The notes beneath the pieces were generated by a model. It saw only the letters and a program-made list of their open reading frames with translations. It was not told the origin of the DNA and searched no databases. From positions 1 through 64,000 of the forward strand of contig NZ_NMQZ01000003.1 in NCBI RefSeq assembly GCF_002864685.1: a DNA stretch of 64,000 nucleotides. The letters run 5' to 3'. This document shows, in pieces, positions 2,631-59,105 of the stretch. This stretch comes from Alloalcanivorax mobilis. GTDB taxonomy: Bacteria; Pseudomonadota; Gammaproteobacteria; Pseudomonadales; Alcanivoracaceae. The translations under genes were made by a program, and so were the position numbers. Each line of letters begins with the position of its first letter. Within the stretch, counting starts at the first letter, position 1.

Positions 2631-2722
2631 TGGACGCCGGACGCCTGACGCTGGACGCGAAACACCGCGCGGCGAATGCCGTGCAAAGCGTCCGGCGTCT
2701 GGCGTCCAGCGTCCGGCGTTTT
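2631..2722. repeat. Inverted heptad element A (GACGC class), between ftsA and ftsZ
   Basis: The left arm holds four 7-nt units at 2631-2658: TGGACGC, CGGACGC, CTGACGC, TGGACGC. The spacer is 2659-2687. The right arm at 2688-2715 reads GCGTCCG, GCGTCTG, GCGTCCA, GCGTCCG, followed by GCGTTTT. The core GACGC/GCGTC is invariant while two positions per unit vary. The array ends 2 nt from the ftsA stop codon. A second hairpin (CCCGTCCGG-ATGGT-CCGGGCGGG on the minus strand) lies at about 2587-2609, ahead of ftsZ. Confidence 0.85.
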
Positions 2723-2724
2723 CA

Positions 2725-3960
2725 TCAAAAATTGCCCTGAAACCATTTCTTGAACCGTTCCATCCAGTTCACTTCGCCGCCACCGGCCTGGGCGCGGGGG
2801 CTGCGGCCTTCTTTCTCCATGCGCTGGCCGTACAGCAGCAGGCCCACGGAGGTGGAATAGATCGGGTTGCGTACCACGTCGGTGAGCCCGGCCACGCCCT
2901 GGGGGGTGCCCAGACGCACCGGCATGTGGAAAATCTCTTCCGCCAGTTCCACCGCGCCTTCGATCTTGGAAGAGCCACCGGTGAGCACGATGCCGCCGGG
3001 GATCATGTCCTCGAAGCCGGAGCGGCGGATTTCCGCTTGGATCAGGGTGAACAGCTCGTCGTAGCGCGGCTCCACCACCTCGGCCAGGTTCTGGCGGCTG
3101 AGGGTGCGCGGCGGCCGGTCGCCAACGCTGGGCACCTTGATGGTCTCGTCGGCGCCGGCCAGTTGCGTCAGCGCGCAGGCGTACTTGATCTTGATTTCGT
3201 CGGCGTGCTGCTTGGGGGTGCGCAGCGCCATGGCGATGTCGTTGGTGACCTGGTCGCCGGCGATGGGGATATTGGCGGTGTGGCGAATCGCCCCCTCGGT
3301 GAAAATGGCGATGTCGGTGGTGCCGCCGCCGATGTCGACGATGCACACGCCCAGCTCGCGCTCGTCTTCGGTGAGGGTGGAATGGGCGCTGGCCAGTTGC
3401 TCCAGGATCACGTCTTCCACTTCCAGGCCGCAACGGCGCACGCATTTCTCTATGTTCTGAACCGCGTTCACGGCGCAGGTCACCAGGTGCACCTTGGCTT
3501 CCAGGCGCACGCCGCTCATGCCCACCGGCTCGCGCACGCCCTCTTGGTTGTCGACCACGTATTCCTGGGGCAACACATGCAGGGTTTTCTGATCCGCAGG
3601 AATCGCCACCGCCTGGGCCGCGTCGATCACCCGGTCGATGTCCGCCTGGGTCACTTCCCGGTCGCGGATCGCGACGATGCCATGGGAATTAAGGCTGCGG
3701 ACGTGGGAGCCAGCGATGCCCGCGTAGACCGAATGGATCTGGCAGCCGGCCATCAGTTCCGCCTCTTCCACGGCGCGTTGAATCGAGCGCACGGTGGCTT
3801 CGATGTCCACCACCACGCCTTTCTTCATGCCCCGCGAGGGTTGGGAGCCCAGGCCGACCACCTCGACAACGCCCGCATCGGTGACCTGACCGACAATGGC
3901 CACCACCTTGGAGGTGCCGATGTCCAGTCCCACGATCATGTTGTCTATTGCATTCGCCAT
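2725..3960 (-). CDS. ftsA: Cell division protein FtsA
   Basis: FtsA is an actin-fold ATPase that tethers FtsZ filaments to the inner membrane and recruits later divisome proteins. The 411-residue product begins with the phosphate-1 motif IVGLDIGTSKVVAIVG and has the phosphate-2 motif CIVDIGGGTTDIAIF. It ends in the amphipathic membrane-targeting helix WMERFKKWFQGNF. It follows ftsQ by 22 bp in the dcw operon. Length and domain order are normal. Confidence 0.98.
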   Translation of the reverse strand: MANAIDNMIVGLDIGTSKVVAIVGQVTDAGVVEVVGLGSQPSRGMKKGVVVDIEATVRSIQRAVEEAELMAGCQIHSVYAGIAGSHVRSLNSHGIVAIRDREVTQADIDRVIDAAQAVAIPADQKTLHVLPQEYVVDNQEGVREPVGMSGVRLEAKVHLVTCAVNAVQNIEKCVRRCGLEVEDVILEQLASAHSTLTEDERELGVCIVDIGGGTTDIAIFTEGAIRHTANIPIAGDQVTNDIAMALRTPKQHADEIKIKYACALTQLAGADETIKVPSVGDRPPRTLSRQNLAEVVEPRYDELFTLIQAEIRRSGFEDMIPGGIVLTGGSSKIEGAVELAEEIFHMPVRLGTPQGVAGLTDVVRNPIYSTSVGLLLYGQRMEKEGRSPRAQAGGGEVNWMERFKKWFQGNF

Positions 3961-3982
3961 TAGAGGTCTGTCCTCTGTCTCG

Positions 3983-4804
3983 TTACGCGTTCTTTTCCGC
4001 TTTGGGATCGCGCCAGGTCACCGCCATGCCATCGGCATAGCGCAAATCGACCCGCGCCACGCCCCGGCTGTCGGCGCTCAACACACCGCGATACAGGCGC
4101 ACAAAGCGGCGCAGCTTACCCACATAGTTTTCCCGGTCGACCACCAGCTGCATGTTGTTGTCCAGACTCAGCCGGGCGGTCAGCCGGGCGTTCACTTCCA
4201 TCCGATCGATGTTCAGGCCCACTTCGCGCAGCAGCTTGCTCATGCTGTGATAAAAGCCCATCACCTCGTCGAGCCGCTGCTCAGGGCCGGTCAGCCGGGG
4301 CAAACCGCTCAGGTCGTACTGCTTGAGCCCCTTGAACGGCTCACCGTTGCTGGACACCAGCACCGCTTCGTTCCACACCGCCACCGGCTCGCGCTCGGTG
4401 ACCTGCAGTTTCACGGTGTCCGGCCATTGGCGGCGCACCGACACCTCCGCGACCCAGCTCAATCCGCGGGCGCGCTGGTAAATCTCATCCAGCGGCGCGG
4501 AGAAATAATTGGCGTCGCGCACCAGCGCGGCCAGCGCCGTCTGCACCTGCTGTTGCCGGCGCACGTCGGTGACGCCATCCACGCCGACCTTGCGGATCGG
4601 GTATTGATCCAGCACCCGTGGCAACCAGATCGCAGCGGCCATCACCACCACCGCCACCATGCTGACCAACAGCCAGGGCAACGCCGAGGCCAGGCGCTGG
4701 CGCAACGGCACGCCCGGCGCCTTGCGTCTGACGGTGGACGCCCTGGCGGACGCCCCGCGCGTGCGGCGCGCGGCGTCCGGGGCACGGCGGGGCGCTCTAG
4801 CCAC
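3983..4804 (-). CDS. ftsQ: Cell division protein FtsQ
   Basis: FtsQ is a bitopic inner-membrane divisome protein that bridges FtsBL and the early ring. The 273-residue product has a long basic N-terminal tail (about 37 residues, rich in Arg and Ala) and one membrane helix (about residues 42-62, LPWLLVSMVAVVVMAAAIWL). A POTRA domain follows (IRKVGVDGVTDV...), then the FtsQ beta domain. The 8-nt overlap with ddlB implies coupled translation. The basic tail is longer than in E. coli FtsQ, so a later start is possible. Confidence 0.95.
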   Translation of the reverse strand: MARAPRRAPDAARRTRGASARASTVRRKAPGVPLRQRLASALPWLLVSMVAVVVMAAAIWLPRVLDQYPIRKVGVDGVTDVRRQQQVQTALAALVRDANYFSAPLDEIYQRARGLSWVAEVSVRRQWPDTVKLQVTEREPVAVWNEAVLVSSNGEPFKGLKQYDLSGLPRLTGPEQRLDEVMGFYHSMSKLLREVGLNIDRMEVNARLTARLSLDNNMQLVVDRENYVGKLRRFVRLYRGVLSADSRGVARVDLRYADGMAVTWRDPKAEKNA

Positions 4805-18147: not shown

Positions 18148-18449
18148 GCGGACGGAAACCGTTGAATGTAAAAGAAACTCTTTGAAAATCAGTTTGTTAG
18201 CTGAGTCACAAAGACAGGAGGAGGGGAATATCGCGAACACTTGTATAGAGAATCAGCCGCGTGCGGGTCGCAGCTCACAAGTTACTTTAAGTGTTAGATT
18301 CTTTTGGAATAAAAAACTGGAAAAATCGGCAAATATGGAAGAAAACGGGTGAGTACTGACTAACGCGGGAGAGGCTAGAAACAGGGGAGAGGATGAAGGG
18401 AACAGGATCGGTTGGGGGTGACGGGGCCCGCCGGGCTTCGTTGAAGGGG

Positions 18450-18554
18450 CTGCAAGCTACACGCTGCAAGTTACAAGGGCGGCTACGTAGCGGCCTTTGC
18501 AGCTTGCGGCTTGCAGCTTGCGGCTTGCAGCTTGCGGCTTGCAGCTTGCGGCTC
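18450..18554. repeat. Inverted heptad element B (AAGCTGC class), at the rnpB 3' end
   Basis: The left arm at 18450-18477 has four 7-nt units: CTGCAAG, CTACACG, CTGCAAG, TTACAAG. The spacer 18478-18498 carries the palindrome GCTACGTAGC. The right arm at 18499-18554 has eight units that strictly alternate GCAGCTT and GCGGCTT, the last being GCGGCTC. The array begins about 9 nt past the 3' end of RNase P RNA, which is transcribed toward it. No T-tract is present. Confidence 0.85.
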
Positions 18555-18559
18555 GAATA

Positions 18560-18922
18560 AAGTGGGTCGGTCGATAAGCCGGGTTCTGTCGTGGACAGCC
18601 ATTCATCTGGGACCCGCGTCGCCGCGAGCCTCTAGCGACCTACCCGAATCCAGCGCGGGCCGCGCCAATGGATTCCTATTTGGTCTTGCTCCGGGTGGGG
18701 TTTACCCTGCCACCGCTGTTGCCAGCGGCGCGGTGCGCTCTTACCGCACCTTTTCACCCTTACCCGATGATCCGAAAAACACCGGGCGGTACGTTTTCTG
18801 TGGCACTGCCGTAACCACGCCGTCACCAGCGCAGTCCCCAGGCGTTACCTGGCACCCTGCCCTATGGAGCCCGGACTTTCCTCCAGTGGTTCACACCACC
18901 AGCGGCTGCCTGACCGACCCGC
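18560..18922 (-). ncRNA. rnpB: RNase P RNA (class A)
   Basis: This is the catalytic RNA of RNase P, which matures tRNA 5' ends. On the minus strand the 5' domain contains GAGGAAAGTCCGGGCTC, and further on AGGTAACGCCTGGG and GAAAAGGTGCGGTAAGAGCGC-like segments. The 3' domain contains GACAGAACCCGGCTTATCG, all highly conserved in bacterial type A RNase P RNA. The P1 helix is visible: 18912-18920 pairs with 18564-18572 (GGGTCGGTC/GACCGACCC). End points are approximate. Proteins predicted across this region on either strand are artefacts. Confidence 0.95.
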
Positions 18923-19001: not shown

Positions 19002-19098
19002 GGTTAAAAGTTGAAAGTTAAAAGTTGAAAACGAGACCGCTCAGCAAGCGCCATGCTGTCTGGAGCGTCTGTAACTTTTAACTTTTAACTTTCAACTG
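19002..19098. repeat. Inverted heptad element C (AAAGTTA class)
   Basis: The left arm at 19002-19029 reads GGTTAAA, AGTTGAA, AGTTAAA, AGTTGAA. The spacer is 19030-19070. The right arm at 19071-19098 reads GTAACTT, TTAACTT, TTAACTT, TCAACTG. Four units per arm, reverse complements apart from a few positions. It lies 55 nt beyond the rsmI stop, upstream of rnpB. Confidence 0.85.
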
Positions 19099-31995: not shown

Positions 31996-32103
31996 TTTTC
32001 AGTTTTCAGTTTTCAGTTTTCAGTTTTCAGTTTTCAGTTTTCAGTTTTCAGTTTTCAGTTTTCAGTTTTCAGTTACTGAACACTGAACACTGAAAACCGA
32101 ACA
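31996..32103. repeat. Inverted heptad element D (TTTTCAG class, 11 perfect copies)
   Basis: Eleven identical tandem TTTTCAG units occupy 31996-32072. After a 3-nt spacer (TTA) a shorter, diverged right arm runs 32076-32103: CTGAACA, CTGAACA, CTGAAAA, CCGAACA. It lies between convergent genes and ends 8 nt from the sulfatase stop. It is the longest perfect array in the window, preceded by a run of ten or so G. Confidence 0.95.
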
Positions 32104-32111
32104 CTGCTTTT

Positions 32112-39146: not shown

Positions 39147-39316
39147 AAGCCAAAAGCTCCAAGCTCCAAGCTGCAAGCTGCAAGCTGCAAGCTGCAAGCT
39201 GCAAGCTGCAAGCTGCAAGCTGCAAGCCAGAAAAGGATCGCGACCCCGCAAAGCCTGTCAAACCTTCCTGGAGGTGTTTTTGAAGCTTGCGGCTTGAAGC
39301 TTGCAGCTCGAAGCCG
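39147..39316. repeat. Inverted heptad element E (AAGCTGC class)
   Basis: The left arm at 39154-39223 has ten 7-nt units: two AAGCTCC, then eight identical AAGCTGC, flanked by degenerate AAGCCAA and AAGCCAG. The spacer is 39231-39281. The right arm at 39282-39309 reads GAAGCTT, GCGGCTT, GAAGCTT, GCAGCTC, then GAAGCCG. It lies between the divergent rplM and tas promoters. It is the only element in the window not located at a gene 3' end. Confidence 0.92.
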
Positions 39317-45782: not shown

Positions 45783-45849
45783 ATGAAGAAAGCCCCAGCT
45801 TGCGGAGCTGGTGTGTTCCCGGGAGCCTCCTCCCCCCGGGGGCGGTCCA

Positions 45850-45951: not shown

Positions 45952-45962
45952 GGGGTCGCCAA

Positions 45963-46258
45963 TGGAGAGGTTCAATCCGCCTCACCCCGGGGAAACCCTT
46001 CGCGAAGATGTGCTGCCCGCACTGGGCCTCAACGTCACGCAGGCCGCCCGGCAACTTGGCGTATCTCGCGTGGCGCTGTCTCGGGTCCTCAACGGCAAAG
46101 CTGCTATCTCTATTGATCTGGCCCGCCGCCTGGAGATCTGGCTTGGCGGCCCGGAGCGAGGGGCGCACGCCGAAACCTGGCTTCGCGAGCAGCTCCAGTA
46201 TGATCTGTGGCAGGCCCGACAACGTGGCGATATTAACGACATCCATACCGCCGTGTGA
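45963..46258 (+). CDS. HigA-family antitoxin (Xre-type)
   Basis: The 98-residue product has the HigA N-terminus MERFNPPHPGETLREDVLP and a helix-turn-helix (VTQAARQLGVSRVALSRVLNGKAAIS). The usual C-terminal helix region follows (WLGGPERGAHAETWLREQLQYDLW). The gene order toxin-then-antitoxin is typical, but the toxin is truncated here. It may persist as a free regulator. The following 46259-46427 shows no recognisable gene. Confidence 0.88.
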
Positions 46259-46427
46259 TCGATAAAGAACAGTGGCGAGCGTGGCCGGGAGCAAAAGACC
46301 GCAGGGACGGGCGCGGATATCCTCCGATACGCTTAACCACAGCGACAGTGGTTGGCGGCTGTTATTGAACGTGGTGAACTTCCGGGGAAACCCCGTCAAA
46401 AACAGGGCCCTAACCTCACTCAACAAC

Positions 46428-47051
46428 TTAATCGTCGAGCAGTGAGTCCGCGTAGAGGCAGTCAAACACCTTGTCGGACTGCCCCTTCATCGCCTCATAG
46501 GCAGCCATCGTTCCTGCCCCTATCCACGACCCGAGCGGACCAAATCCTGTATTTTTCACAACGCCGGTGGACTTCTGGGCTTGCTCAATGTCTTTGAATT
46601 GAAGCACTGTCTTATCTTCAAGAGGCGTCACCGACAATCTGTATCGAACCGCCTGCGCAAGGGGAATAAGTGGACCCGAGCGATACTCCGTGACGCCTCT
46701 CGCAATCACCACACCTGATTTGATATCGGCATACCGCAAGACTGACCCTCCGCCCACTGTTCGGATCGAGCCCCTGCTGTAATAAGTGCCCGTGACAGGA
46801 CCAACGAACGATCCTGCAGAATCACTCAACGTGACTTCGCTGTTTTCGACGGTAAGGGAGACGCAAGTGCTCGGGTTTTGCTTTACCTTTCCCGCCCGCT
46901 CAAAGGTGACTGCCTCAACCATTTGCACCTTTGAGCCGTAATGAGGCTGAGGCTTCGTTAAGGTCACATTTGATGGCAAATTTGAAATCGGCGCATTGGT
47001 ACAGCCCGCCAACATCGCTGCCCCCAGCAGCAAAAAAACACTCGTCTTCAT
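46428..47051 (-). CDS. Predicted lipoprotein (DUF3313-like)
   Basis: The start MKTSVFLLLGAAMLAGCTNA at 47051 gives 207 residues with lipobox LAGC (Cys17). The body is beta-rich with a Gly-rich C-terminal segment (GFGPLGSWIGAGTMAAYEAM). It weakly resembles small outer-membrane lipoproteins of the DUF3313 kind; I cannot assign a role. The codon and base use is less GC-rich than the backbone. 47052-47248 holds its presumed promoter region; I see nothing else there. Confidence 0.6.
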   Translation of the reverse strand: MKTSVFLLLGAAMLAGCTNAPISNLPSNVTLTKPQPHYGSKVQMVEAVTFERAGKVKQNPSTCVSLTVENSEVTLSDSAGSFVGPVTGTYYSRGSIRTVGGGSVLRYADIKSGVVIARGVTEYRSGPLIPLAQAVRYRLSVTPLEDKTVLQFKDIEQAQKSTGVVKNTGFGPLGSWIGAGTMAAYEAMKGQSDKVFDCLYADSLLDD

Positions 47052-47248
47052 AGGCTGTTCATCCTGGTTCATTATTATTTTTCGAGCCGGTTTTGTTACT
47101 GGCATCCCCATCAAGGTTGCGGGGCATCAACCTTCCGCAGCCAATGTTTTATAAGAAAACATACTTCGCCGCAAACTCCATTGGCCAGGGGGCAAAAAGC
47201 TGCCGCAATGGTGGCAGCCCTTTCCAGCCGCGAATGTCCCCGCCCTTT

Positions 47249-49183: not shown

Positions 49184-49334
49184 CGTCCTTCCCCAAGGCG
49201 TTTTTAATAAGGCCTTTAGCGTCGGAGGATCGGGCTGTCAGCGCAAGCTTTTTTACCGCCGTCAATTTGCCGCCCGCCAACCGGGTTGGCCTGCCCACAC
49301 CGCCGGACGGCGCCCGACGGTGCGGGTCGCGGGG

Positions 49335-50477
49335 TCAGGCCAGCAGGGCGCGGCTGATGATGGTCTTCATGATCTCGTTGGTGCCGCCGTAGATGCGCTG
49401 CACCCGGGCGTCGGCGTACATGCGCGCGATCGGGTATTCCCACATGTAGCCGTAGCCGCCGTGCAGTTGCACGCACTCGTCGATGATCTCGCACTGCAGG
49501 TCGGTGACCCAGTATTTGGCGCCGGCGGCGGTGGGGATATCGAGCTCCTTTTTAAGATGCATTTCCAGGCAGCGGTCCACGTAGGCGCGGGCGACGTCGA
49601 GTTTGGTGCTCATTTCCGCCATTTTAAACTGGGTATTCTGGAAATCGGCGACGCGCTGGCCGAAGGCCTTGCGCTCTTTCACGTAGTCCAGGGTGTGCTG
49701 GAACGCGCTTTCGGCCATGGCCAGGCCGTTGATGGCGATGCCCAGGCGCTCCTGGGGCAGCTCCTGCATCAGGTAGACAAAGCCCATGCCCTCTTCGCCG
49801 ATCAGATTGCCGGCCGGCACTTTGACGTCCTGGAAGAACAGTTCGGAGGTGTCCTGGGCCTTCATGCCCACTTTCTTCAGGTTCTTGCCCTTCTCGAAGC
49901 CTTCCATGCCCGCTTCGACGATGATCAGGCTGGTGCCCTTGGCGCCCTTACTCGGGTCGGTCTTGGCCACCACGATCACGATGTCGGCGTTCTGGCCGTT
50001 GGTGATAAAGGTCTTGGAGCCGTTCAGAATGTAGTGGTCGCCGTCTTTCACGGCGGTGGTTTTCACGCCCTGCAGGTCGGAGCCAGCGCCGGGTTCACTC
50101 ATGGCGATGGCGCCGATCAGCTCGCCGGTGACCATTTTCGGCAGCAGCCGCTGTTTCATTTCCTCGGAGCCGTAGTGCTCAATGTAGGGCGCCACGATCT
50201 CGGTGTGCAGGCCCCAGCCGATGCCGGTGAGCCCGGCGCGGGACACCTCCTCGCTGATCACCACACTGTAGAGAAAATCCGCGTCGATGCCGCCGTAGGC
50301 CTCGCTCACCATCGGGCACAAAAAACCCTGCTCGCCGGCCTTGCGCCACAGTTCTTTGGGCACCTGCCCGGTCTGTTCCCACTCTTCATGGTGAGGCACG
50401 GCCTCGTTTTCCAGGAACTTACGCACGGTATCGCGAAAGGTTTCGTGGTCGGAATTGAACAGGGTACGGGGGATCAT
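49335..50477 (-). CDS. Long-chain-type acyl-CoA dehydrogenase
   Basis: FAD-dependent enzyme for the first step of beta-oxidation. The 380-residue start (MIPRTLFNSDHETFRD) has GGAG upstream. The C-terminal signature reads RIYGGTNEIMK, with Gly where medium-chain enzymes have the catalytic Glu. The Glu of QELPQERLGIA aligns with the catalytic residue of mammalian long-chain ACAD (LPQERL), whose C-terminal half (QLHGGYGYMWEYPIA) it resembles. FAD-binding segments are visible (AMSEPGAGSD, ILNGSKTFITNG). 49184-49334 is non-coding. Confidence 0.9.
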   Translation of the reverse strand: MIPRTLFNSDHETFRDTVRKFLENEAVPHHEEWEQTGQVPKELWRKAGEQGFLCPMVSEAYGGIDADFLYSVVISEEVSRAGLTGIGWGLHTEIVAPYIEHYGSEEMKQRLLPKMVTGELIGAIAMSEPGAGSDLQGVKTTAVKDGDHYILNGSKTFITNGQNADIVIVVAKTDPSKGAKGTSLIIVEAGMEGFEKGKNLKKVGMKAQDTSELFFQDVKVPAGNLIGEEGMGFVYLMQELPQERLGIAINGLAMAESAFQHTLDYVKERKAFGQRVADFQNTQFKMAEMSTKLDVARAYVDRCLEMHLKKELDIPTAAGAKYWVTDLQCEIIDECVQLHGGYGYMWEYPIARMYADARVQRIYGGTNEIMKTIISRALLA

Positions 50478-50572
50478 CGCAGTCTCCGGTTGTCTCAGGC
50501 AGGGATACAGAGTGTCCAAGCCAGGCGGGCGAGGCAATGACCAAAATGATCAACGCGGCTTCGCCGCGAGTG

Positions 50573-50665
50573 GCAAGCTTCAAGCGACAAGCTGGCCGTG
50601 CCGGCGGCCACCGCCCTCCGCCCCGACATGGCTTGCTTGTAGCTGTAGCTTGAAGCTTGAAGCTG
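50573..50665. repeat. Inverted heptad element F (AAGCTNN class)
   Basis: The left arm at 50573-50593 reads GCAAGCT, TCAAGCG, ACAAGCT. The right arm at 50638-50665 reads TGTAGCT, GTAGCTT, GAAGCTT, GAAGCTG. The spacer is about 44 nt and GC-rich. It is the most degenerate member. It ends 8 nt from the zapE stop codon, upstream of the acyl-CoA dehydrogenase. Confidence 0.7.
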
Positions 50666-50673
50666 CACCTAGC

Positions 50674-51765
50674 CTAGGCGAGGTGCTCCCGCGCCAGGTA
50701 TTCCTGCGATTGCATCTCCAGCAAGCGCGAGCGGGTGCGTTCGAATTCGAAGTCCAGGCGGCCGCCGGCGTAGAGGTCTTCGATCGGGGTTTCGGCGGTG
50801 ATCACCAGCTTCACGGCGCGGTCGTAGAACTCGTCGACCAGGTTGATAAAGCGCCGCGCGCGGTCATCGCTGCCAACGCCCATGCGCTCCACGTTGGAGA
50901 CCAGCACGGTCTGGAATTCGCGGGCGATTTCGATGTAATCGCTCTGGCTGCGCGGGCCGTCGCAGATCGCCTCGAAATCGAACCAGACCACGTCGTCGGC
51001 GGATTTCACGGTGGCGATTTTGCGGCCCTCCACCAGCAGGTTGCCCTGCTCGCGGTGGCGGCCGTGTTCGCTGGCAAGCGCCGCGAAGCGATCGCTCATA
51101 AAGCGGTCCGCATCGGGGCCGAGCGGGCAGTGAAACAATTCCGCCTGCTCGAGCAAGCGCAGGCGGTGGTCCTTGCCGCCGTCCACGTTGAGCACCCGGG
51201 TGTGCTGTTTGAGCAGCTCGATGGCGGGCAGGAAGCGGGCGCGCTGCAGGCCGTCTTTATAGAGGCCGTCCGGTTCGATGTTGGAGGTGGCCACCAGGGT
51301 CACGCCCTGCTCGAACAGAGTCTGCATCAGGGTGGCAAGAATCATCGCGTCGGTGATGTCGGTGACGAAGAACTCGTCGAAACACAGCACCCGGTAGCGG
51401 CCCGCGAATTCCCGGGCGATGCTCTCCAGCGGGTTTTTCTCGCCCTGGCGCTCGCGCATCTGGCGGTGCACTTTCTGCATGAAACGGTGGAAATGCATGC
51501 GCCGCTTTTGCTCGAACGGCAGGCAGGCGAAGAACACGTCCATCAGGTAGGTTTTACCCCGGCCGACGCCGCCCCACATGTACAGGCCGGTGAGCGGCTT
51601 CGGTTTCGCCTTGCGCAACCGCGCCAGCAGACCGCTGGGGGCCGGCGGCGCGTCCACCAACCGGTGATAGAGATCATCCAGCGCGCGCACCGCCTGTTCC
51701 TGCGCGGCGTCCTGCACGAACTCCGGGCGGGCCAGATCGGCCCGGTACTTCTCAAGGGGCGTCAT
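50674..51765 (-). CDS. zapE: Cell division ATPase ZapE
   Basis: ZapE is an AFG1-type P-loop ATPase that acts at the Z ring in E. coli. The 363-residue product has Walker A GGVGRGKTYLMD (about residue 71), Walker B VLCFDEFFVTDITDA and the conserved VTLVATSNIEPDGLYKDGLQR sensor region. C-terminal FEFERTRSRLLEMQSQEY is typical. Confidence 0.95.
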   Translation of the reverse strand: MTPLEKYRADLARPEFVQDAAQEQAVRALDDLYHRLVDAPPAPSGLLARLRKAKPKPLTGLYMWGGVGRGKTYLMDVFFACLPFEQKRRMHFHRFMQKVHRQMRERQGEKNPLESIAREFAGRYRVLCFDEFFVTDITDAMILATLMQTLFEQGVTLVATSNIEPDGLYKDGLQRARFLPAIELLKQHTRVLNVDGGKDHRLRLLEQAELFHCPLGPDADRFMSDRFAALASEHGRHREQGNLLVEGRKIATVKSADDVVWFDFEAICDGPRSQSDYIEIAREFQTVLVSNVERMGVGSDDRARRFINLVDEFYDRAVKLVITAETPIEDLYAGGRLDFEFERTRSRLLEMQSQEYLAREHLA

Positions 51766-51853
51766 GATTCACGGGCGTGGCAAAAGAAAGGGGCGCTCAA
51801 TGTAGCGTTGAGCGCGCGGGGTTACAACAAGGCTGGCGCCGACGCTGTGCCGA

Positions 51854-52492
51854 TCAGGACGATCCCGGCAGCCGCGAGGCGGCCACTTCCTTGAGATCGG
51901 GAAGGTTGCCGTGAAAGAAATGGCCGCTGTCCGGAAAGCGGATCAGATCCGGCGCCAACGGCGTTTGTTCCACCCAGCGGAACACCTGTTCGGCGGGCAC
52001 CACTTCGTCGTCTTCGCCCTGCACCACGGTCACCGGGCAGCCGACCCGTTCGATGCCGTTAAAGTCGAAGTGATGCACCGGTGGCGCCACCAGCATCAGC
52101 GCCGCCGGCGCATCGCCATTGGCGGCCAACACCTCGGCGCCATGGGCGGCCACGTAACTGCCAAAGGAAAAGCCGGCCAGCCACAGCGGCAGGCCCGGGT
52201 AGCGCCGCGTCAGCCAGTGGTGCACGGCGATCAGATCCTCGGCTTCGCCGGCGCCTTCGCTGTACGCGCCCTGGCTGTTGCCCACGCCCCGAAAGTTAAA
52301 GCGCACCACCGCGGCGCCGGCATCGCGGGCCGCGCGGCTGAGGGTGGTGACGACTTTGTTGTCCATGGTGCCCCCGAACAGAGGGTGCGGATGGCAAACG
52401 ATGGCCAGCAGCGAAGGCGTGTCGGTTTCACCTTCGAGAACCGCCTCAAGATTGCCCGAGGGCCCTTCCAGGGCCAGTCGTTCTCGGCTCAT
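51854..52492 (-). CDS. Alpha/beta hydrolase (dienelactone hydrolase-like)
   Basis: The start at 52492 (MSRERLALEG, 212 residues) has GGGAG about 6 nt upstream. The nucleophile elbow is GFSFGS (Ser in GxSxG). The oxyanion-side motif is CHPHPLFGGTMDNKVV. The acid is likely in GEDDEVVP and the catalytic His in DSGHFFHG. It belongs to the short alpha/beta hydrolases conserved next to zapE in related bacteria; the substrate is unknown. Confidence 0.85.
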   Translation of the reverse strand: MSRERLALEGPSGNLEAVLEGETDTPSLLAIVCHPHPLFGGTMDNKVVTTLSRAARDAGAAVVRFNFRGVGNSQGAYSEGAGEAEDLIAVHHWLTRRYPGLPLWLAGFSFGSYVAAHGAEVLAANGDAPAALMLVAPPVHHFDFNGIERVGCPVTVVQGEDDEVVPAEQVFRWVEQTPLAPDLIRFPDSGHFFHGNLPDLKEVAASRLPGSS

Positions 52493-52578
52493 GGTTTTCT
52501 CCCGATACAATTTCCGTCGCGTCGTGCTTGGCGCGGCGATGGCGACTGTGCTGCAATGAGCAGGCTAAGGAGTATGAC

Positions 52579-53100
52579 ATGGATATGCTGACAACCAATG
52601 TGATCTGTTTTCTCGCCGGCCTGGTGGTCGGCGCCGGCCTGCTGTATTGGTTCCTGCCCGCTCGCCGCCAGTCCAGCGCGGTGATGCGCGAACGCGACGA
52701 TGCCCGCAACGCGCTCAATCATTACCGCGATCAGGTCGACCATCACTTTCTGCACACCGCCGAACTGGTTAACGACATGACCCAGGCTTATCGGGCGGTG
52801 CATCAGCATCTCTCCCAGGGCGCCCAGGCGCTGTGCAGCGAGGGCGGCCGCAAGCGCGCCGCCGCCAAGAGCCTGGACAGCGCCTACGACGAACCGGAAG
52901 CGCCGCTGTCCCAACCGCTCGATTACGCCCCTAAGGCCCAGGGCACGCTGTCCGAGGATTTCGGGCTGCGCCAGAAAGCGGATGGGCCGTTCAGCCCGCT
53001 GGAAGTGGACGAGGAAGGCCCGGAGATCGTGATCGAGCCGCCGCGTGACTACGCCGACGCCGGTGATGAGGAGAACACGGACAGCAAACGCCGGGCGTAA
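52579..53100 (+). CDS. zapG: ZapG/YhcB family inner-membrane protein (DUF1043)
   Basis: The 173-residue product has an N-terminal membrane helix (VICFLAGLVVGAGLLYWFLP). A coiled-coil segment follows (RERDDARNALNHYRDQVDHHFLHTAELVNDMTQAYRAVHQHL), then an acidic low-complexity tail. In E. coli YhcB links division and envelope growth. The start at 52579 has AAGGAG 6 nt upstream. Confidence 0.9.
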   Translation: MDMLTTNVICFLAGLVVGAGLLYWFLPARRQSSAVMRERDDARNALNHYRDQVDHHFLHTAELVNDMTQAYRAVHQHLSQGAQALCSEGGRKRAAAKSLDSAYDEPEAPLSQPLDYAPKAQGTLSEDFGLRQKADGPFSPLEVDEEGPEIVIEPPRDYADAGDEENTDSKRRA

Positions 53101-53103
53101 CGC

Positions 53104-53124
53104 CGGACGCCGGACGCCGGACGC
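53104..53124. repeat. Half heptad element G (GACGC class)
   Basis: Three tandem CGGACGC units begin 3 nt after the zapG stop. No matching right arm is seen; a REP doublet and a terminator follow instead. The unit is the same as in element A. Confidence 0.75.
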
Positions 53125-53141
53125 TAAAGATAAAAAAACCT

Positions 53142-53210
53142 GTCGCTGGCTGGGCCTGCTCCTACGTGGCCCTATGCAAGGGTCGCGCAGGAGCAGGCCC
53201 AGCCAGCGAC
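53142..53210. repeat. REP doublet (BIME-like) with 22-bp perfect arms
   Basis: Bases 53142-53163 (starting GTCGCTGGCTGGGCC) are the perfect reverse complement of 53189-53210. They are separated by 25 nt with a small inner stem (GGCCCT...AGGGTC). Read outward from the centre, each unit has the Pseudomonas-type REP form (GTAGGAGC...GCGAC on the minus strand; the plus-strand copy begins CGCAGGAGC). Confidence 0.8.
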
Positions 53211-53287
53211 GCCCCGGCGCGCCGCCAACGCCACCTCGCGGCACGGCCACCCGTCACATGGGGGCTCTTCCCTCCCTGTTCCCCCAT

Positions 53288-53316
53288 AAAAAAACCGGCG
53301 CGAGGCCGGTTTTTTT
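53288..53316. terminator. Bidirectional intrinsic terminator between zapG and sat
   Basis: Seven A, CCGGC, loop GCGAG, GCCGG, seven T. The stem works in both directions between convergent zapG and sat. Confidence 0.92.
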
Positions 53317-53331
53317 ATGGCTTGGCGACGA

Positions 53332-54546
53332 TCAACGCGCCGAGTGGCCTTTCAGTTCCACTTTCACTTTCTCGTGCTCCTGCAGGCCCTGGTAGTAGGC
53401 ACGCAGTACGCTGAGCACCTCGGGCCGGCTGAAGTTGTCGGGCACTTCGCCGCCTTCGCTGAGCAGTTTGCGCAGCTTGGTGCCGGACACCAGCACGCGG
53501 TCTTCGGCGTCGTGCGGGCAGGTGCGCAGGCTGGACATGGTGCCGCACTTGTCGCACCAGAACGTCCAGTCGATTTTCAGCGGCTGGGTGATCAGCGCGT
53601 TCTCGGGGATCTCATCGAAAATGTGGTGGGCGTCGAACGGGCCGTAGTAGTCACCCACGCCGGCGTGGTCACGGCCCACGATCAGGTGCGAGCAACCGTA
53701 GTTCTGGCGGAACAGGGCGTGCAGCAGCGCCTCGCGGGGGCCGGCGTAGCGCATGTCCAGCGGGTAGCCCGATTGCACCACGGTGTTTTCCACGAAGTAG
53801 TTGTCGATCAGCGTTTTGATCGCTTCCTGGCGCACTTCCGCCGGGATATCGCCGGGCTTCAGGTTGCCCAGCAGCGAGTGCACCATTACGCCGTCGCAGA
53901 TTTCGATGGCGATCTTGGCCAGATGCTCATGGGAGCGGTGCATCGGGTTACGGGTCTGGAACGCCACCACCGTTTTCCAGCCGCGCTGCTCGAACATGGC
54001 GCGGGTTTCGGTGGGGGTCATGTAGATGCCGGCGTATTTCTCCGGGAATTCGCCCTGGCTGAACACCTTCACCGGGCCGGCCAGGTTGACGTCGCCCTGG
54101 GCCAGCACCATTTTCACGCCGGGGTGCTCTTCGTCGGTGGTTTTGAACACCTGCTGGCACTCATGGGCCTTGTCGATGGTGTACTTCTCATCGAGGCGCA
54201 TGGAACCCATGATTTCGCCGCTGTCGTCCACCAGCGCCACTTCGCTGCCTTCGGAAAGGCCGTCGGCGGTAGCCTGGTCGGTGGACAGGGTAATCGGAAT
54301 CGGCCAGAACACGCCATTGGCAAGAGCCATGTTGTCGCACACGCTCTGCCAGTCGGCTTTGCCCATGAAACCATCCAGGGGGGTGAAGCCGCCGATGCCG
54401 AACATGATCAGGTCACCGCGCTCCCGGGAGCTGAGGGTGATTTTCGGCAAGGACCGCGCCGCGGCCAGCGCCTGCTCACGCTCCGCGCCTTCCAGCAGCA
54501 GAATGTTCAGCGTTTCGCTGCCATGGGGTTGCACCAGTTGCGACAT
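53332..54546 (-). CDS. sat: ATP sulfurylase, single-chain (Sat)
   Basis: Sat makes adenosine-5'-phosphosulfate from ATP and sulfate. The 404-residue product has the nucleotide-binding motifs [12 protein letters not shown] and GRDHAGVG. It also has a CxxC...CPH zinc-like motif (WCDKCGTM...TCPHDAED) seen in single-subunit bacterial Sat proteins. The ATG at 54546 has GGGAG 5 nt upstream; a GTG at 54552 is an alternative. I expected the two-subunit CysDN enzyme here from the P. aeruginosa order. No APS kinase or APS reductase gene is in the window. Confidence 0.95.
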
Positions 54547-54654
54547 GTTCACTCCCTAGAATTAATCGTCGATGGATTGGGCGGCGCATTATACCGGGGC
54601 CACCTGCCCCGGCTCCACCGCTGCTAAGATCGTTCGGTTTGGGGCTTATGCTTT

Positions 54655-54815
54655 GGGACGTCGGACGTCTGATGTCGGACGTCTGGACGCTTAACATTCA
54701 TCTTCCAGGCCATGGCGTGTTTCCTGCCAGGCTGTTCCGGTCTGGCAGGAAATATTGCCAACTTCTCAGGCCCGGGCTTAGCGTCGGACGTCCGACATCA
54801 GACGTCCGACGTTAC
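54655..54815. repeat. Inverted heptad element H (GACGT class) with inner hairpin
   Basis: The left arm at 54655-54691 reads GGGACGT, CGGACGT, CTGATGT, CGGACGT, CTGGACG. The right arm at 54780-54815 contains GCGTCGG, ACGTCCG, ACATCAG, ACGTCCG, ACG. The odd unit CTGATGT is matched by ACATCAG at the corresponding place, so the arms are true reverse complements over more than 30 nt. The 88-nt spacer holds a second inverted repeat, TTTCCTGCCAG at 54720-54730 and CTGGCAGGAAA at 54742-54752. It ends 5 nt from the lipid kinase stop. Confidence 0.92.
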
Positions 54816-54820
54816 AACCC

Positions 54821-55684
54821 TCATGCCCACGGCACCCGCATCAGCACCGGCTGCTCTTCCATGGCGATGTCCGCGGGCAGGAAACCGGTCGGGTCGCCGT
54901 CGGTTTGCACCGGTTCCAGCCCCGGCGCGCTGACGGTGACCCGTTCGGCACTCAGCGAGGCGACGCCGGGCACCCGCTCCATGCGGCCCAGCGGCAGTGC
55001 CGCCAGGCAGCGCAGCAGAAAGGTGATGCCCGGGCGCTGGAACATCAGCACCTGCAAGCTGGGCCGGGACAGGCTCGCCTTGCGGCTGAGCAGAAAGCTG
55101 CCGCCATAATAACGGCCATGGGTGATCACCGCTGAGAAGCAGTCGAGGGGCCGGCCATCCACGGTGATCCGATACCGCACCTGGCCGTAGCGAAACAACT
55201 GCCGGATCATACTGATCACATAGGCGAGCTTGCCGACCCGGCGTTTGAGAATCAGATCCACCTGATCCACCACCCAGGCGTCATAGCCGATGCCACACAT
55301 CACCATGAAGCGGCGCCCGTTAAGGCGCGCCGGCGTCACCGGCAGGGTGCGCCCTTCAAGAATCACCCGGGCGGCGGCGTCCGGGCGTTTCGGCATATTC
55401 ACCTCGCGCGCCAATACGTTGGCGGTGCCGATCGGAAACAAGCCCAGCATGACCCCGGGGTTCAGACCGTTGATGACGTCGTTGGTGGTGCCATCGCCGC
55501 CGGCGGCGACCACGCATTCGCCCTGCTCCTCCAGCGCCCGCAGATAACGCGTGGCGTCGCCGGGGGCCTTGGTGTAATACAGGCGCACCCGCGCGCCGCC
55601 CGCTTCCAGGGCACGCACGAAGTGGCGCAAGCGCCGCACCCTGCCGCCGCCGGCGGTGGGGTTATAGATCACGGTGATGTTCAT
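54821..55684 (-). CDS. Diacylglycerol kinase family lipid kinase (YegS-like)
   Basis: The start MNITVIYNPTAGGG at 55684 (287 residues) has AAGGA upstream. Catalytic-domain signatures: NPTAGGGRVRRL, VAAGGDGTTNDVINGL and LFPIGTANVLARE. Such enzymes phosphorylate diacylglycerol, phosphatidylglycerol or sphingoid-like lipids; the lipid here is unknown. Confidence 0.9.
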   Translation of the reverse strand: MNITVIYNPTAGGGRVRRLRHFVRALEAGGARVRLYYTKAPGDATRYLRALEEQGECVVAAGGDGTTNDVINGLNPGVMLGLFPIGTANVLAREVNMPKRPDAAARVILEGRTLPVTPARLNGRRFMVMCGIGYDAWVVDQVDLILKRRVGKLAYVISMIRQLFRYGQVRYRITVDGRPLDCFSAVITHGRYYGGSFLLSRKASLSRPSLQVLMFQRPGITFLLRCLAALPLGRMERVPGVASLSAERVTVSAPGLEPVQTDGDPTGFLPADIAMEEQPVLMRVPWA

Positions 55685-55766
55685 TGAATTCCTTGAGGCC
55701 GCGCCGTGCGTCAGCACGGATCGCGGTTAAATCCCGACCGTTTCCACCCGCCTTGGAGCCCTCGGC

Positions 55767-56525
55767 TCAGACCGGGTTATCGATATCGATGAAGATGTGC
55801 TCCAGCCCGTATTCGTTGGCCAGCCATTCGCCCACCGCCTGCACGCCGTAACGTTCGGTGGCGTGGTGGCCACAGGCGAAATAGTGGATGCCGGTTTCGC
55901 GGGCGAAATGAGTGGTGGGCTCGGAAATTTCACCGCTCAGATAGGCGTCCACGCCCAGCGCCTGGGCCTGCTCGATAAAGCCCTGGGCGGCGCCGGTGCA
56001 CCAGGCCAGGGTCTCGATTTCATCCTCGGTGTCGCCAATGTGCAGCGCTTCGCGGCCCAGTACCGCTTCCACATGGGCAGCGAAATCCCCGGCGCTCATC
56101 GGCTCTTCGAGGCGGCCGATGTTGCCCACCGACAGCGGGTTGTCCGGCTCGAGACCACCTTCTACCCGCAACCCCAAGCGGCGGGCGAGCTGGGCATTGT
56201 TACCCAGGCGCGGGTGCGCATCCAGCGGCAAATGATAGGCGAACAGGCTGATGTCGTGGCGCAACAGACTTTGCAGGCGCTGCTTTTTCATGCCGCGCAC
56301 GCGGGCGTCTTCGTTTTTCCAGAAATAGCCGTGGTGCACCAGAATGGCGTCCGCTTCTTCGACCACCGCCGCGTCAATCAGCGCTTGGCAGGCGGTAACG
56401 CCGGTCACCAGCCGCCGCACCTGGTCGCGCCCTTCCACCTGCAAGCCGTTGGGGCAGTAATCGCGAAAGCGCGGCGTCTGCAGCTCGCCGTCGAGCACGG
56501 TGAGCAGATGGTCTCGTTTTAACAT
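55767..56525 (-). CDS. Nif3-like dinuclear-metal protein (YbgI family)
   Basis: The 252-residue product matches the NIF3/YbgI family: DYCPNGLQVEGRDQVRRLVTGVTA, LVHHGYFWKNEDAR, SLFAYHLPLDAHPRLGNNAQLA and YFACGHHATERYGVQAVGEWL. The His residues are metal ligands in homologues. Annotated elsewhere as GTP cyclohydrolase I type 2, but the physiological role is unsettled. Divergent from degS. Confidence 0.93.
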   Translation of the reverse strand: MLKRDHLLTVLDGELQTPRFRDYCPNGLQVEGRDQVRRLVTGVTACQALIDAAVVEEADAILVHHGYFWKNEDARVRGMKKQRLQSLLRHDISLFAYHLPLDAHPRLGNNAQLARRLGLRVEGGLEPDNPLSVGNIGRLEEPMSAGDFAAHVEAVLGREALHIGDTEDEIETLAWCTGAAQGFIEQAQALGVDAYLSGEISEPTTHFARETGIHYFACGHHATERYGVQAVGEWLANEYGLEHIFIDIDNPV

Positions 56526-56630
56526 GGGTGCCCCCTGCCAGTGAGTCCGTGGCGAAAGCGGCGCTCGGCGCGGGTGGCCGGTACGCCGTTTTCAGGATCG
56601 CGCTGCGGCAGCCCCAAGCCGCCGCCGATC

Positions 56631-56639
56631 TGCTAATAT
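56631..56639 (+). promoter_or_regulatory. Extended -10 for degS
   Basis: TGCTAATAT lies 37 nt before the GTG start of degS. The -35 region is not recognisable. Confidence 0.5.
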
Positions 56640-56675
56640 TGCGCGCAGTTTACATGATTCTTGGGGGCAAACTCA

Positions 56676-57779
56676 GTGGTGAAGCTGTTCCGGTTTCTGG
56701 CCTTGCCGGTTCTGGCCGGGCTGATTGTGGGTCTGGCGGTGCTGTGGTGGTTTCAACAGGGGCCCGGCGCGCACGATGCGCGGGGTGTCCGGGCACCCAC
56801 CGCGGACAGCTACGCCGACGCGGTGTCGCTGGCGGCGCCGGCGGTGGTGAACATCTACACCACCCAGATCGTCACCAATAACGACAGCCTTTCCGACAAC
56901 CCCATGTTCGACCGTTTCATGGAACGCCCGCGCCGCGAGCGCGCGCTGGGCAGCCTGGGCTCGGGGGTGATTGTCTCTTCCGAGGGTTACATTCTCACCA
57001 GCTATCACGTGATTCGCGAGGCCGACGAGATTCTGGTGGCGCTGCGCGACGGCCGCGACGCACCGGCACGGGTGGTCGGCACCGACCCGGAAACCGACCT
57101 GGCGCTGCTGCAGATCGCCCTGGAAAACCTGCCGGAGGTGAAACTCAACGGCCCCAAACCGGTGCGCGTGGGCGACGTGGTGCTGGCCATCGGCAACCCG
57201 CTGGGCATCGGCCAGACCGTGTCCATGGGCATTGTCAGCGCCACCGGCCGCAGTCATCTTGGCATCGCCACCTTCGAGAATTTCATCCAGACCGACGCCG
57301 CCATTAATCGCGGCAACTCCGGCGGCGCGCTGATCGACACCCGCGGCCACTTGATCGGCATCAACACCGCCATTCTCTCTTCGGACGGCAACTGGCAAGG
57401 CATCGGCTTCGCCACGCCGGCCTCCATCGCCGCCGAGGTGATGTCCGATCTGATCGAGCACGGCCGGGTGATTCGCGGCTATCTGGGCGTCACCGTGCAG
57501 GACATGAACCCCAATCTGGCGGAAAGCTTTGGTCTGGAGGAAGTGCACGGCGGCGTGGTCACCGAGGTGGTCGCCGGCAGCCCGGCGCAAAAAGCCGGCC
57601 TGCAGGCCGGCGATGTGCTGGTGGGTGTAAACGGTGAGGCGATGCCCGACGGCTACGCGGCGATGAACCTGATCGCCGGTACCGAACCGGGCACCAAGAT
57701 CATTCTCAACGTGCTGCGCAACCGTCAGGAGCTGGGACTGGCGGTGACCGTCGGCACCCGCCCGCCGGCGAAGGAATAA
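56676..57779 (+). CDS. degS: Periplasmic serine protease DegS/AlgW
   Basis: This membrane-anchored HtrA-type protease starts the sigma-E/AlgU envelope stress cascade by cutting the anti-sigma factor. A GTG start at 56676 has GGGGG about 9 nt upstream; a TTG at 56661 is the ORF limit. It gives 367 residues. One N-terminal anchor helix (about residues 4-26), the trypsin-like domain with H111, D141 and S215 (GNSGG), and a single PDZ domain (about 265-355, GYLGVTVQDMNP). One PDZ domain separates it from DegP. Confidence 0.93.
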   Translation: MVKLFRFLALPVLAGLIVGLAVLWWFQQGPGAHDARGVRAPTADSYADAVSLAAPAVVNIYTTQIVTNNDSLSDNPMFDRFMERPRRERALGSLGSGVIVSSEGYILTSYHVIREADEILVALRDGRDAPARVVGTDPETDLALLQIALENLPEVKLNGPKPVRVGDVVLAIGNPLGIGQTVSMGIVSATGRSHLGIATFENFIQTDAAINRGNSGGALIDTRGHLIGINTAILSSDGNWQGIGFATPASIAAEVMSDLIEHGRVIRGYLGVTVQDMNPNLAESFGLEEVHGGVVTEVVAGSPAQKAGLQAGDVLVGVNGEAMPDGYAAMNLIAGTEPGTKIILNVLRNRQELGLAVTVGTRPPAKE

Positions 57780-57943
57780 AAAGTTAAAAGTTAAAAGTTA
57801 AAAGTTAAAAGCACGATCGAAGGGCCTGCCGTGCGAAAAGGCCGTGCACGCGAACCGGGCTTGCCGTGCATCGCTGCCAGCCTCCGCGCCCTATCAACGA
57901 AGCCGCCTTTAACTTTTAACTTTCAACTTTCAACTTTCAACTC
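57780..57943. repeat. Inverted heptad element J (AAAGTTA class), overlapping the hisC stop
   Basis: The left arm is four perfect AAAGTTA units at 57780-57807, starting directly after the degS stop codon. The right arm at 57909-57943 reads TTAACTT, TTAACTT, TCAACTT, TCAACTT, TCAACTC. Its last unit contains the hisC stop codon (57937-57939). The spacer of about 100 nt is GC-rich. Genes on both sides converge on it; there is no other terminator. Confidence 0.92.
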
Positions 57944-58998
57944 AAAATATCCCCCAACGCCTGCACCAGTTCCCGGTTCTGCTCCGGGCGGCCAATGGTG
58001 ATGCGCAGGTAATCCTGGATGCGTTCGGGTTTGCCGAAGTGGCGCACGATGATGCCGCGTTCGCGCAGGGCCAGGGCCAGGTCGGCGCCGCTGTGATCGG
58101 GGTGGCGGGCGAACAGGAAATTGGCGGCCGAGGGCAGCACCTGAAAACCCAGGCCGTTGAGAACAGCGCTCAGGCTTTCGCGCTCGTCGATCACCAGCTT
58201 GCGGCCCTGCTGGAACCAGGCTTCGTCTTCGAAGGCGGCGCGGCCGGCGGCAATGGCGAGGCGGTCCAGAGGGTAGGAGTTGAAGCTGTTTTTGACCCGC
58301 TCCAGCCCTTCGATCAGGCCTTCGTGGCCAATCGCGAACCCCACCCGGATGCCCGCCAGGGCACGGGATTTGGACAACGTCTGCACCACCAACAAATTGG
58401 CGTACCGGTCCACCAGGGCGATGGCGGTGTCGGCGCCGAAATCCACATAGGCTTCGTCCACCACCACCACCGAATCCGGGTTTGCTTCGGCCACCCGGGC
58501 GATCGCGTCCAGCGACAACGGCTGTCCGGTGGGGGCGTTGGGGTTGGGGAAAATCAGGCCGCCGTTGGGGCGCTGATAATCGGCCAGATCGATGGCCAGA
58601 TCGTCGTTGAGCGGCACCGTCTGATAGTCGATGCCATAAAGACCGCAATAGACTTTATAAAAACTGTAAGTGATGTCCGGGAACAGAATTGGCCGATCCT
58701 GCTTGAACAAGCCCAGAAACAGATGCGCCAACACTTCGTCGGAGCCATTGCCGAGAAATACCTGGCTCGGCTTGAGCCGATAGTAGGCGGCGATGGCGTC
58801 TTTCAGCTCGCTGGCGTCCGGGTCCGGGTACAAGCGCAAACGCTCATCCGCGGCGTCACGGATCGCCTCGATCACCCGCGGCGACGGCCCCAGCGGATGC
58901 TCATTGGTATTGAGCTTCACCAGCCGGCTCATCTTCGGCTGCTCGCCGGGCACGTAAGGCTCCAGATCGCGAACGAACGGACTCCAGAATTTGCTCAT
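57937..58998 (-). CDS. hisC: Histidinol-phosphate aminotransferase HisC
   Basis: PLP enzyme of histidine synthesis converting imidazole-acetol phosphate to histidinol phosphate. The 353-residue product has [45 protein letters not shown] and the PLP-lysine region [18 protein letters not shown] (SKS lysine). Its last codons and stop lie inside heptad element J. Confidence 0.96.
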
Positions 58999-59012
58999 GA
59001 GTACTCCTGGGT

Positions 59013-59105
59013 CGGACGTCTGACGTCGGACGTCGGACGCGAAAACCTAAACCACGACTCGACGACCGGATGGGCTAGCGTCCGACTTCAGACGTCCGAC
59101 GTCAG
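59013..59105. repeat. Inverted heptad element I (GACGT class)
   Basis: The left arm at 59013-59040 reads CGGACGT, CTGACGT, CGGACGT, CGGACGC, then GAAAAC. The right arm at 59078-59105 reads GCGTCCG, ACTTCAG, ACGTCCG, ACGTCAG. The 37-nt spacer begins GAAAAC, much as the spacer of element A begins GAAACAC. It lies between hisD (59 nt) and hisC, only 14 nt upstream of the hisC start. Confidence 0.88.

Follow-up and report, generated by a model that had tools for sequence, protein, structure and literature searches.

The window analysed here, a stretch of 64,000 nt (G000:C23:1-64000, where G000 labels the source genome), carries ten intergenic elements, A to J, built from tandem 7-nt units (heptads) that typically form two inverted arms around a spacer. 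A sequence-only reading of this DNA had claimed ten such elements, an inverted partner in nine and proximity to a stop codon or RNA 3′ end in seven. Tandem Repeats Finder, combined with reading of the sequence, recovers all ten and identifies a partner in nine (element G is single-armed); for A, B, D, F, G, H and J, the distance to a predicted stop or to the 3′ end of rnpB is about 10 nt or less (Table 1). Gene coordinates come from a home-made gene caller and rnpB from Rfam, and ftsA, ftsZ, hisC and rsmI are names that we presume from recognition rather than from a search. The presumed HisC protein is 82% identical to a protein from an Alcanivorax metagenome-assembled genome (MAG) and 80% identical to that of Alloalcanivorax gelatiniphagus, and the genome is therefore assigned to Alloalcanivorax/Alcanivorax.

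Table 1. Heptad elements and the RNase P RNA gene in the window
Feature	Class (unit)	Coordinates	Strand	Arms, core and position
A	1 (GGACGCC)	2627..2719		arms 2627-2658 and 2688-2719; spacer 29 nt
B	2 (CAAGCYN)	18449..18553		right arm 18497-18553
rnpB (RNase P RNA)		18559..18921	-	from Rfam; elements B and C on either side
C	3 (AAGTTRA)	19003..19097		core 41 nt; between rnpB and presumed rsmI
D	4	31996..32106		TTTTCAG x11, then directly the inverted arm (ACTGAAC); no core
E	2	39148..39314		arms 39154-39227 and 39280-39314
F	2	50573..50664		degenerate arms; stop 9 nt away
G	1	53100..53124		one arm only, starting at stop codon 53098-53100
H	1 (GGACGTC)	54655..54812		arms flank a TGTTTCCTG-type core
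J	3	57779..57942		core 96 nt; overlaps the ends of two convergent genes
I	1 (GGACGTC)	59011..59107		between presumed hisC and its upstream gene

Element A lies between two minus-strand genes recognised as ftsZ and ftsA, 5 nt beyond the ftsA stop, and element B lies 5 nt beyond the 3′ end of the minus-strand rnpB (18559). Element D occupies a gap between convergent genes with a stop 10 nt away, and element E sits between divergent genes. The nearest stop is 56 nt from element C, while element I precedes the start of the presumed hisC by 12 nt and follows the next stop at a distance of 57 nt. Element J has 78% identical copies at G000:C49:21137 and C56:86227. Positions 53125-53300, beside element G, contain a pair of inverted sequences about 20 bp long (CGCTGGCTGGGCCTGCTCCT...AGGAGCAGGCCCAGCCAGCG) and what looks by eye like an intrinsic terminator.

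Arrays of this period extend throughout the genome. At a threshold of 14, 9 arrays of period 7 are detected in the window and none in any of 30 dinucleotide shuffles, and at a threshold of 11 the window contains 13 against a shuffle mean of 0.07 and a maximum of 1. A 417,926 bp sample of the same genome (threshold 14) yields 54 arrays of period 7, 37 of period 14 and 17 of period 21, with all other periods from 4 to 20 giving 0-3. The main sample comprises 30 loci (557,349 bp): the window, 12 fixed-offset stretches and 17 loci picked for pattern or similarity hits, so that densities are to be taken from the fixed-offset stretches, where 21 arrays in 219,936 bp correspond to about 390 per genome. 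Four heptad classes cover 116 of the 118 arrays in the main sample (threshold 11, both strands treated alike); of the two set aside, one fits a fifth unit, GATRCAG, found in the related genomes G003 and G001. Same-class neighbours less than 350 bp apart (threshold 9) are arranged +- in 46 cases and -+ in none, with three ++, three -- and one unclear; five further neighbour pairs at this distance join different classes. Period 7, inverted partners and non-random placement relative to genes, put forward earlier as properties to be expected genome-wide, thus hold in the sample. One class 2 arm (L019:3047-3606; G000:C27:8051-8603) runs for 560 nt with about 80 TTGCAGC units and may reflect either extreme expansion or an assembly effect.

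Structurally, the tandem units of an arm consist of a near-invariant tetra- or pentamer (GACG[C], CACGC, CAAGC, AAGTT or CAGT) joined to a variable linker of 2-3 nt. Class assignment and phasing rely on the conserved motif and bias the following counts toward near-invariance, yet only 2 of 118 arrays are left out: positions 1-4 vary in 6 of 1040 cells in class 1 (260 units, GACGYYN), where position 5 is C in 232 and T in 28 and positions 6-7 vary in about one third; class 2 (176 units, CAAGCYN) shows 3 variant cells among 880 at positions 1-5; variation falls mainly at position 6 in class 3 (74 units, AAGTTRA); and class 4 (28 units) reads CAGT with the remainder variable. Class 1 linkers are dominated by CCG (110), CTA (35), CTG (32) and CCA (23); decay of methylated CCGG could fit these and does not fit the other classes. 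A model in which one arm mirrors the other unit by unit was rejected: identity of matched units is 0.328 against 0.314 in shuffles for class 1 (37 elements, some from relatives), 0.111 against 0.071 for class 2 (7 elements) and 0.429 against 0.448 for class 3 (11 elements). The element upstream of rnpB in relative G005, whose arms match by eye, is an exception.

Between the arms lies, in most elements, a conserved core. The inter-arm distance in the 46 pairs is 41-109 nt in 34, below 35 nt in 10 and longer in two, and conservation is clear in classes 1 and 3. Class 1 cores, of which there are many dispersed copies, form an imperfect palindrome aligning as ACGC-TAAACCCG ... inner palindrome (GTGTTTCCTG...CAGGAAACAC, or TTGCGGCTACGCA...) ... 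CGGGTTTA-GCGT and bounded by terminal inverted repeats (ACGCTAAACCCG...CGGGTTTAGCGT). Class 3 cores of about 41 or about 100 nt begin with GCGCG and are common to several elements, whereas class 2 spacers are mostly short and dissimilar, one being shared by eye between element E and the element at L019:2971-3606. The sequence-only reading was right about inverted arms around a spacer, although most spacers are conserved cores rather than filler, and it overlooked the invariant-plus-linker makeup of the unit, the conserved core and the unmatched arms. Folding was computed for elements A and H: as single-stranded DNA, A reaches -44.2 kcal/mol (z -7.5), and as an RNA hairpin H reaches -106.7 kcal/mol (z -14.2). 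RNAalifold applied to class 1 core alignment A1 (16 sequences) finds an inner stem of 8 pairs, none of which is changed on both sides. At L125:4527-4947 (G000:C22) the class 1 core occurs three times in tandem at 121-nt spacing, two of the copies being identical.

The dispersed conserved cores, the polarity of 46 to 0 and the confinement of 116 of 118 arrays to four classes bear out the earlier proposal that the family spread by copying rather than by independent slippage. The elements are real and genome-wide and, most likely, mobile in origin. Telomerase-like addition at break ends, which the fixed polarity had suggested, was dropped once the cores proved conserved.

Placement relative to genes is strongly biased. 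None of 78 elements lies inside a gene as predicted by the gene caller. Among adjoining gene 3′ ends, 46 of 96 fall within 10 nt of an element, 24 of these 46 being inside or touching the array, against 1 of 60 adjoining gene starts. In tandem intergenic regions the element is closer to the 3′ end in 37 of 48 cases (p 0.0002), and 6 of 78 elements lie between divergent genes, compared with 55 of 306 intergenic regions over 40 nt. A terminator scan of positions 44001-64000, which include elements F-I, returns 29 sites against 18.2 in shuffles; none of the 29 coincides with an element, and a role as intrinsic terminators was rejected on that ground.

Comparison with relatives indicates that arm, core and arm act as a single insertion, and the whole unit is often absent where relatives are comparable. 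Site F measures 137 nt in the window and 15-38 nt in 10 of 11 relatives having both flanks, the remaining one (G002) carrying 302 nt with arrays of its own. Site I measures 167 nt in the window, 0-7 nt in 5 of 12 relatives and 30-131 nt in the rest, and at site H the flanking genes of the ALOHA MAG are about 12 nt apart. In A. gelatiniphagus, repetitive extragenic palindromes (REPs) of GTAGGAGCGGC type occupy sites G, H, I and J, and further empty or REP-filled sites were found in relatives besides those of the window. The rnpB locus served as a comparison site across 12 genomes. At one spot 3′ of rnpB, the element is of class 2 in G000, class 3 in G002 and class 5 in G003; G012 bears there a hairpin with a T run that resembles an intrinsic terminator, REP-like repeats stand in G004 and G010, and inspection by eye reveals no element or terminator in G001 and G011. 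Before rnpB, the heptad arms of seven relatives begin by eye at one codon of the presumed rsmI, the arm providing the stop; the units read AYAGTTG in G004, G005 and G008 and AYAGTKA in G010, G006, G007 and G011, the last of these being collapsed. At L229 (G006:C66:172550-173400) an armed element keeps, by eye, its right arm only, a REP-type palindrome having taken the place of the left arm and core, and the orthologous site in L230 (G007:C4:28600-30660) holds an insert of about 1.5 kb that we take to resemble an IS200/IS605-type element.

A selected RNA 3′-end module, in which transcription in either direction yields a highly stable hairpin that terminates or shields the RNA, for instance behind rnpB, would suit the 3′-end bias, the folding energies of A and H, and the presence in G012 of a terminator-like sequence where G000 has element B. 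The linkers of the two class 1 arms, unmatched unit by unit, the core devoid of compensatory changes, the sites empty in relatives, the two genomes with neither structure after rnpB and the six elements between divergent genes all speak against it, leaving this a possible but doubtful explanation of the elements.

The arms change between species around one core family. A model of the class 1 core of TGTTTCCTG type, R1, built on sequence only, matches at least 136 times in G000 (both strands counted), 39 times in G012, 10 in G003, 5 in G008 and twice each in G005 and G011, and 0 times in the other seven genus members. Among the four G003 elements read, the arms consist of CACGC plus 2 or 3 nt in three and of GACGC units in the fourth. 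CACGC arms also occur in the G005 element, and both kinds in G012; in G008, one of two elements combines AACACGC and TTGCACGC within a single array of its CACGC arms, and the arms of the other are degenerate and GACGC-like. Dispersed repeat blocks in G008 (L130:7290-7868 and L131:6121-6882), 96-97% identical, end in class 1 arrays of equal 71-nt length and may explain part of that genome's 111+258 pattern matches. At one orthologous site the arms are of the GACGC kind in G012 and of the CACGC kind in G003, REPs stand in G011 and G002, and G001 retains a remnant of a REP; as the G012 and G003 cores are only 65.5% identical (69.9% inverted), these may be separate insertions. Shared insertions, in turn, differ in arm length: G011 and G012 have 2 and 2 units against 3 and 9 around cores of 78.4% identity, a G003/G012 core is 100% identical between flanks of 83-89% with one arm of 4+5 units against 1+1, and G005/G008 differ likewise.

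Among six clear insertions shared by sister species, two differ by an inversion of the core in place. Specifically, a G005/G008 insertion with the same flanks has cores 94.9% identical when inverted and 66.7% when compared directly, against a baseline of 64-66% between a core and its own reverse complement, and the element before rnpB in the same pair gives 83.0% inverted against 52.9% direct. Orientation is kept in G011/G012 (78.4% direct, 56.0% inverted), at two G003/G012 sites (97.4% against 60.7%, and 100% direct) and in G006/G007 before rnpB, which are identical by eye. The G004/G010 comparison before rnpB (67.0% against 50.8%) and other pairs there are too diverged to call.

These features also bear on a sequence-specific recombinase or DNA-binding system, for which the pentamer ladder would be a multi-site landing pad for a protein that copies and flips the core. 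The near-invariant tetra- or pentamer with a freer linker in each class, the related units at 7- or 8-nt spacing and the inversion at two loci are what such a system would leave, but no co-located gene was found, a separate specificity would be needed for each class, and inversion between inverted repeats of about 30 nt is possible without a dedicated enzyme. We regard this explanation as unlikely. An array of protein bound to one helix face every 21 bp, as conceived earlier, is contradicted by the mixture of 7-nt and 8-nt units within single arrays around one core family in relatives.

Neutral simple-sequence repeats, arising where intergenic DNA tolerates slippage of heptads and gaining inverted partners by chance or by palindrome-forming replication errors, are a quite unlikely source of the elements. 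In class 1, the fraction of adjacent units that are identical exceeds that of within-array shuffles (0.536 against 0.379), and therefore local tandem duplication does occur; the excess is slight in class 2 (0.844 against 0.825) and class 4 (0.682 against 0.631) and nil in class 3 (0.435 against 0.435). The arm lengths that differ between species are equally in keeping with slippage. It would, however, spread mutated pentamers, yet the first four class 1 positions are almost invariant, and it accounts neither for the dispersed cores, the fixed polarity and the four classes nor for the absence of the whole unit at sites F and I in relatives. Slippage is thus disfavoured as the origin of the elements and likely stands as the way in which arms lengthen once an element has inserted. 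G-quadruplex elements, as proposed for the GGGAATC repeats of Xanthomonas with the same layout and similar placement (PMC4692102, in its accessible part), are extremely unlikely here, the units GACGCCG, CAAGCTG, AAAGTTA and TTTTCAG having no run of three G, class 1 offering GG pairs only (which strictly would still admit a two-layer form) and classes 2-4 not even these.

The elements are probably small non-autonomous mobile palindromes of the kind represented by REP doublets forming hairpins (REPINs) and by miniature inverted-repeat transposable elements (MITEs). MITEs are short and dispersed, with inverted ends and no coding capacity, and the heptad elements resemble them in all these respects; they differ in that their ends have no fixed length and that no parent transposon or target duplication was found. 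Copies may spread via a single-stranded hairpin intermediate on which a transposase would act in trans, after which the arms would lengthen and shorten by slippage and the inverted arms could promote flips through intra-element recombination or template switching. Gene 3′ ends would be favoured if insertion there is harmless or useful. Any host role might be played by long RNA hairpins formed in both directions at transcript 3′ ends, as stabilisers, terminators or read-through buffers.

Several observations weigh against a mobile origin of this kind. No autonomous copy was found: paired class 1 ends lie about 75-120 nt apart among the matches listed, many of them with no listed partner. R1, which represents the class 1 core only, has 0 matches in 20 loci around Y1 (RAYT-type) genes, and Y1 matches number 2-5 in each of 13 genus genomes and do not track heptad abundance; RAYT was rejected as the mobiliser on these two grounds, and the search for a mobilising enzyme found none. 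Target-site duplications could not be discerned, the relatives being too diverged for junction placement, and several sites are mixed in relatives (G 59-200 nt, H 112-316 nt, J 74-138 nt or inserts of 1.7-5 kb). Both inversions come from one species pair, G005/G008, and 50 orthologous gaps (29 pairwise comparisons) gave no inversion beyond the known rnpB locus; four of the 50 had a match over 45 bits, three direct and one, at that locus, inverted. Moreover, the pentamer is near-invariant even in diverged elements, the inner units being intact in G011/G012 at 78.4% core identity, which neutral slippage fails to explain. Separately, a class 4 array (L152:2694-2716; G000:C14) lies just upstream of one of the genome's three Y1 (RAYT-like) genes.

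Searches of the literature found nothing on Alcanivorax heptads, subscription journals lying mostly outside their coverage. The heptanucleotide repeats of cyanobacteria, known as short tandemly repeated repetitive (STRR) sequences, likewise fall into several classes per genome, and we know of no inverted arm-core design among them. The closest likeness is in Xanthomonas, so that the inverted design, which the sequence-only reading did not know to be described, had in fact been published: Rehm et al. (2015) report 186 and 183 GGGAATC repeats in two Xanthomonas, with 70 and 75 convergent pairs favouring gene ends (PMC4692102). In the accessible part of that paper, unit positions 1-4 and 6 are conserved and two variable, the mean distance to the 5′ neighbouring open reading frame is 28 nt, few repeats lie between divergent genes, no function was found, and sister species usually share the gene context and differ in length. 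The shared traits are genome-dispersed, intergenic, convergent heptad arrays near gene ends; Xanthomonas has one G-rich class read as a G-quadruplex, whereas four classes lacking G3 tracts occur here, and conserved core, whole-unit insertion, unit switching and inversion were not encountered in that part of the paper (PMC4692102), which also mentions three heptanucleotides in Calothrix. The TAACTGA arrays of Beggiatoaceae are likewise many-copy and intergenic but, in the accessible text, consist of direct repeats mostly just upstream of start codons, with a single indirect repeat (PMC4679880).

REPs and REPINs are described by Bertels and Rainey (2011; PMC3116915) and Di Nocera et al. (2013; PMC3733652). 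As far as the accessible parts of these papers go, REPINs, bacterial interspersed mosaic elements (BIMEs) and GTAG- and CGTC-REPs resemble the heptad elements as extragenic inverted doublets with a spacer, able to form a long hairpin and lying behind genes in tandem or convergent order (PMC3116915, PMC3733652). The inverted, hairpin-forming doublet is evident here from the 46 +- and 0 -+ pairs and the two folded elements, and REPs and heptad elements occupy the same sites in sister species. Unlike in REPINs, the element ends are 7/8-nt arrays of variable length, and no RAYT gene flanked by the repeats was found, with the class 1 core absent from the 20 Y1 loci and a single class 4 array adjoining one of the genome's three Y1 genes. 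No conserved GTAG- or CGTC-tagged palindrome of 20-40 bp appears in class 1 core alignments A1 and A2 (10 sequences in the latter); class 1 right arms do repeat CGTC, and no small palindrome of the CGTC-REP kind (CGTC tag, 8-9 bp stem, 4-5 nt loop, CCA tail) is apparent in the alignment. Most likely, the elements are REPIN/MITE-like palindromes that are new in having pentamer-ladder ends.

Wider occurrence is patchy. Outside the genus, R1 detects one element, in 1 of 33 genomes of the family, and a plasmid collection gave no match to a class 1 element and only a 35-nt match to element J in two records. Four consecutive CAAGC units occur in 5 of 369 gammaproteobacterial genomes, the source genome included (39+111 in G000, 27+19 in G325, which belongs to another family, and one match in each of three), and the reversed control matches two other genomes (5 and 6), so that stray hits occur. 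GGGAWTC runs occur in 3 of the 369 (31+72 in G371, 2+6 in G404, 1 in G202) and 0 times in the source genome, with one genome (6) in the reversed control. In chosen stretches of G371, two elements with AGGCGTR arms have similar cores of 192-202 nt (GCCACGGAARCACACGGAA...), whose letters found no literature match; further CCACGGAARCACACGGAA palindrome matches at L266:17731-19974 and L268:3158-8119 apparently belong to another abundant repeat. Eighty hisC loci (1.58 Mb, chiefly Pseudomonas and Marinobacter) contain 4 period-7 arrays, 3 of them in A. gelatiniphagus. A widespread gammaproteobacterial superfamily of mobile palindromes with pentamer-ladder arms, including Xanthomonas GGGAATC, G325 CAAGCYN and G371 AGGCGTR, might unite these cases, with a recombinase that would read a pentamer every 7-8 nt, copy the element to gene 3′ ends and flip its core while lineages change the pentamer; we offer this tentatively and think it somewhat unlikely.

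Taken as arms of small mobile palindromes, the heptads provide a testable account of the noted heptanucleotide excess in bacteria, and the G-quadruplex reading of the Xanthomonas repeats therefore cannot be general. Species differ in whether an intergenic site at a gene 3′ end holds REPs or a heptad element; arms exchange their unit around cores of one family, and the cores flip in place. The arms could, in addition, serve as fast strain-typing markers.

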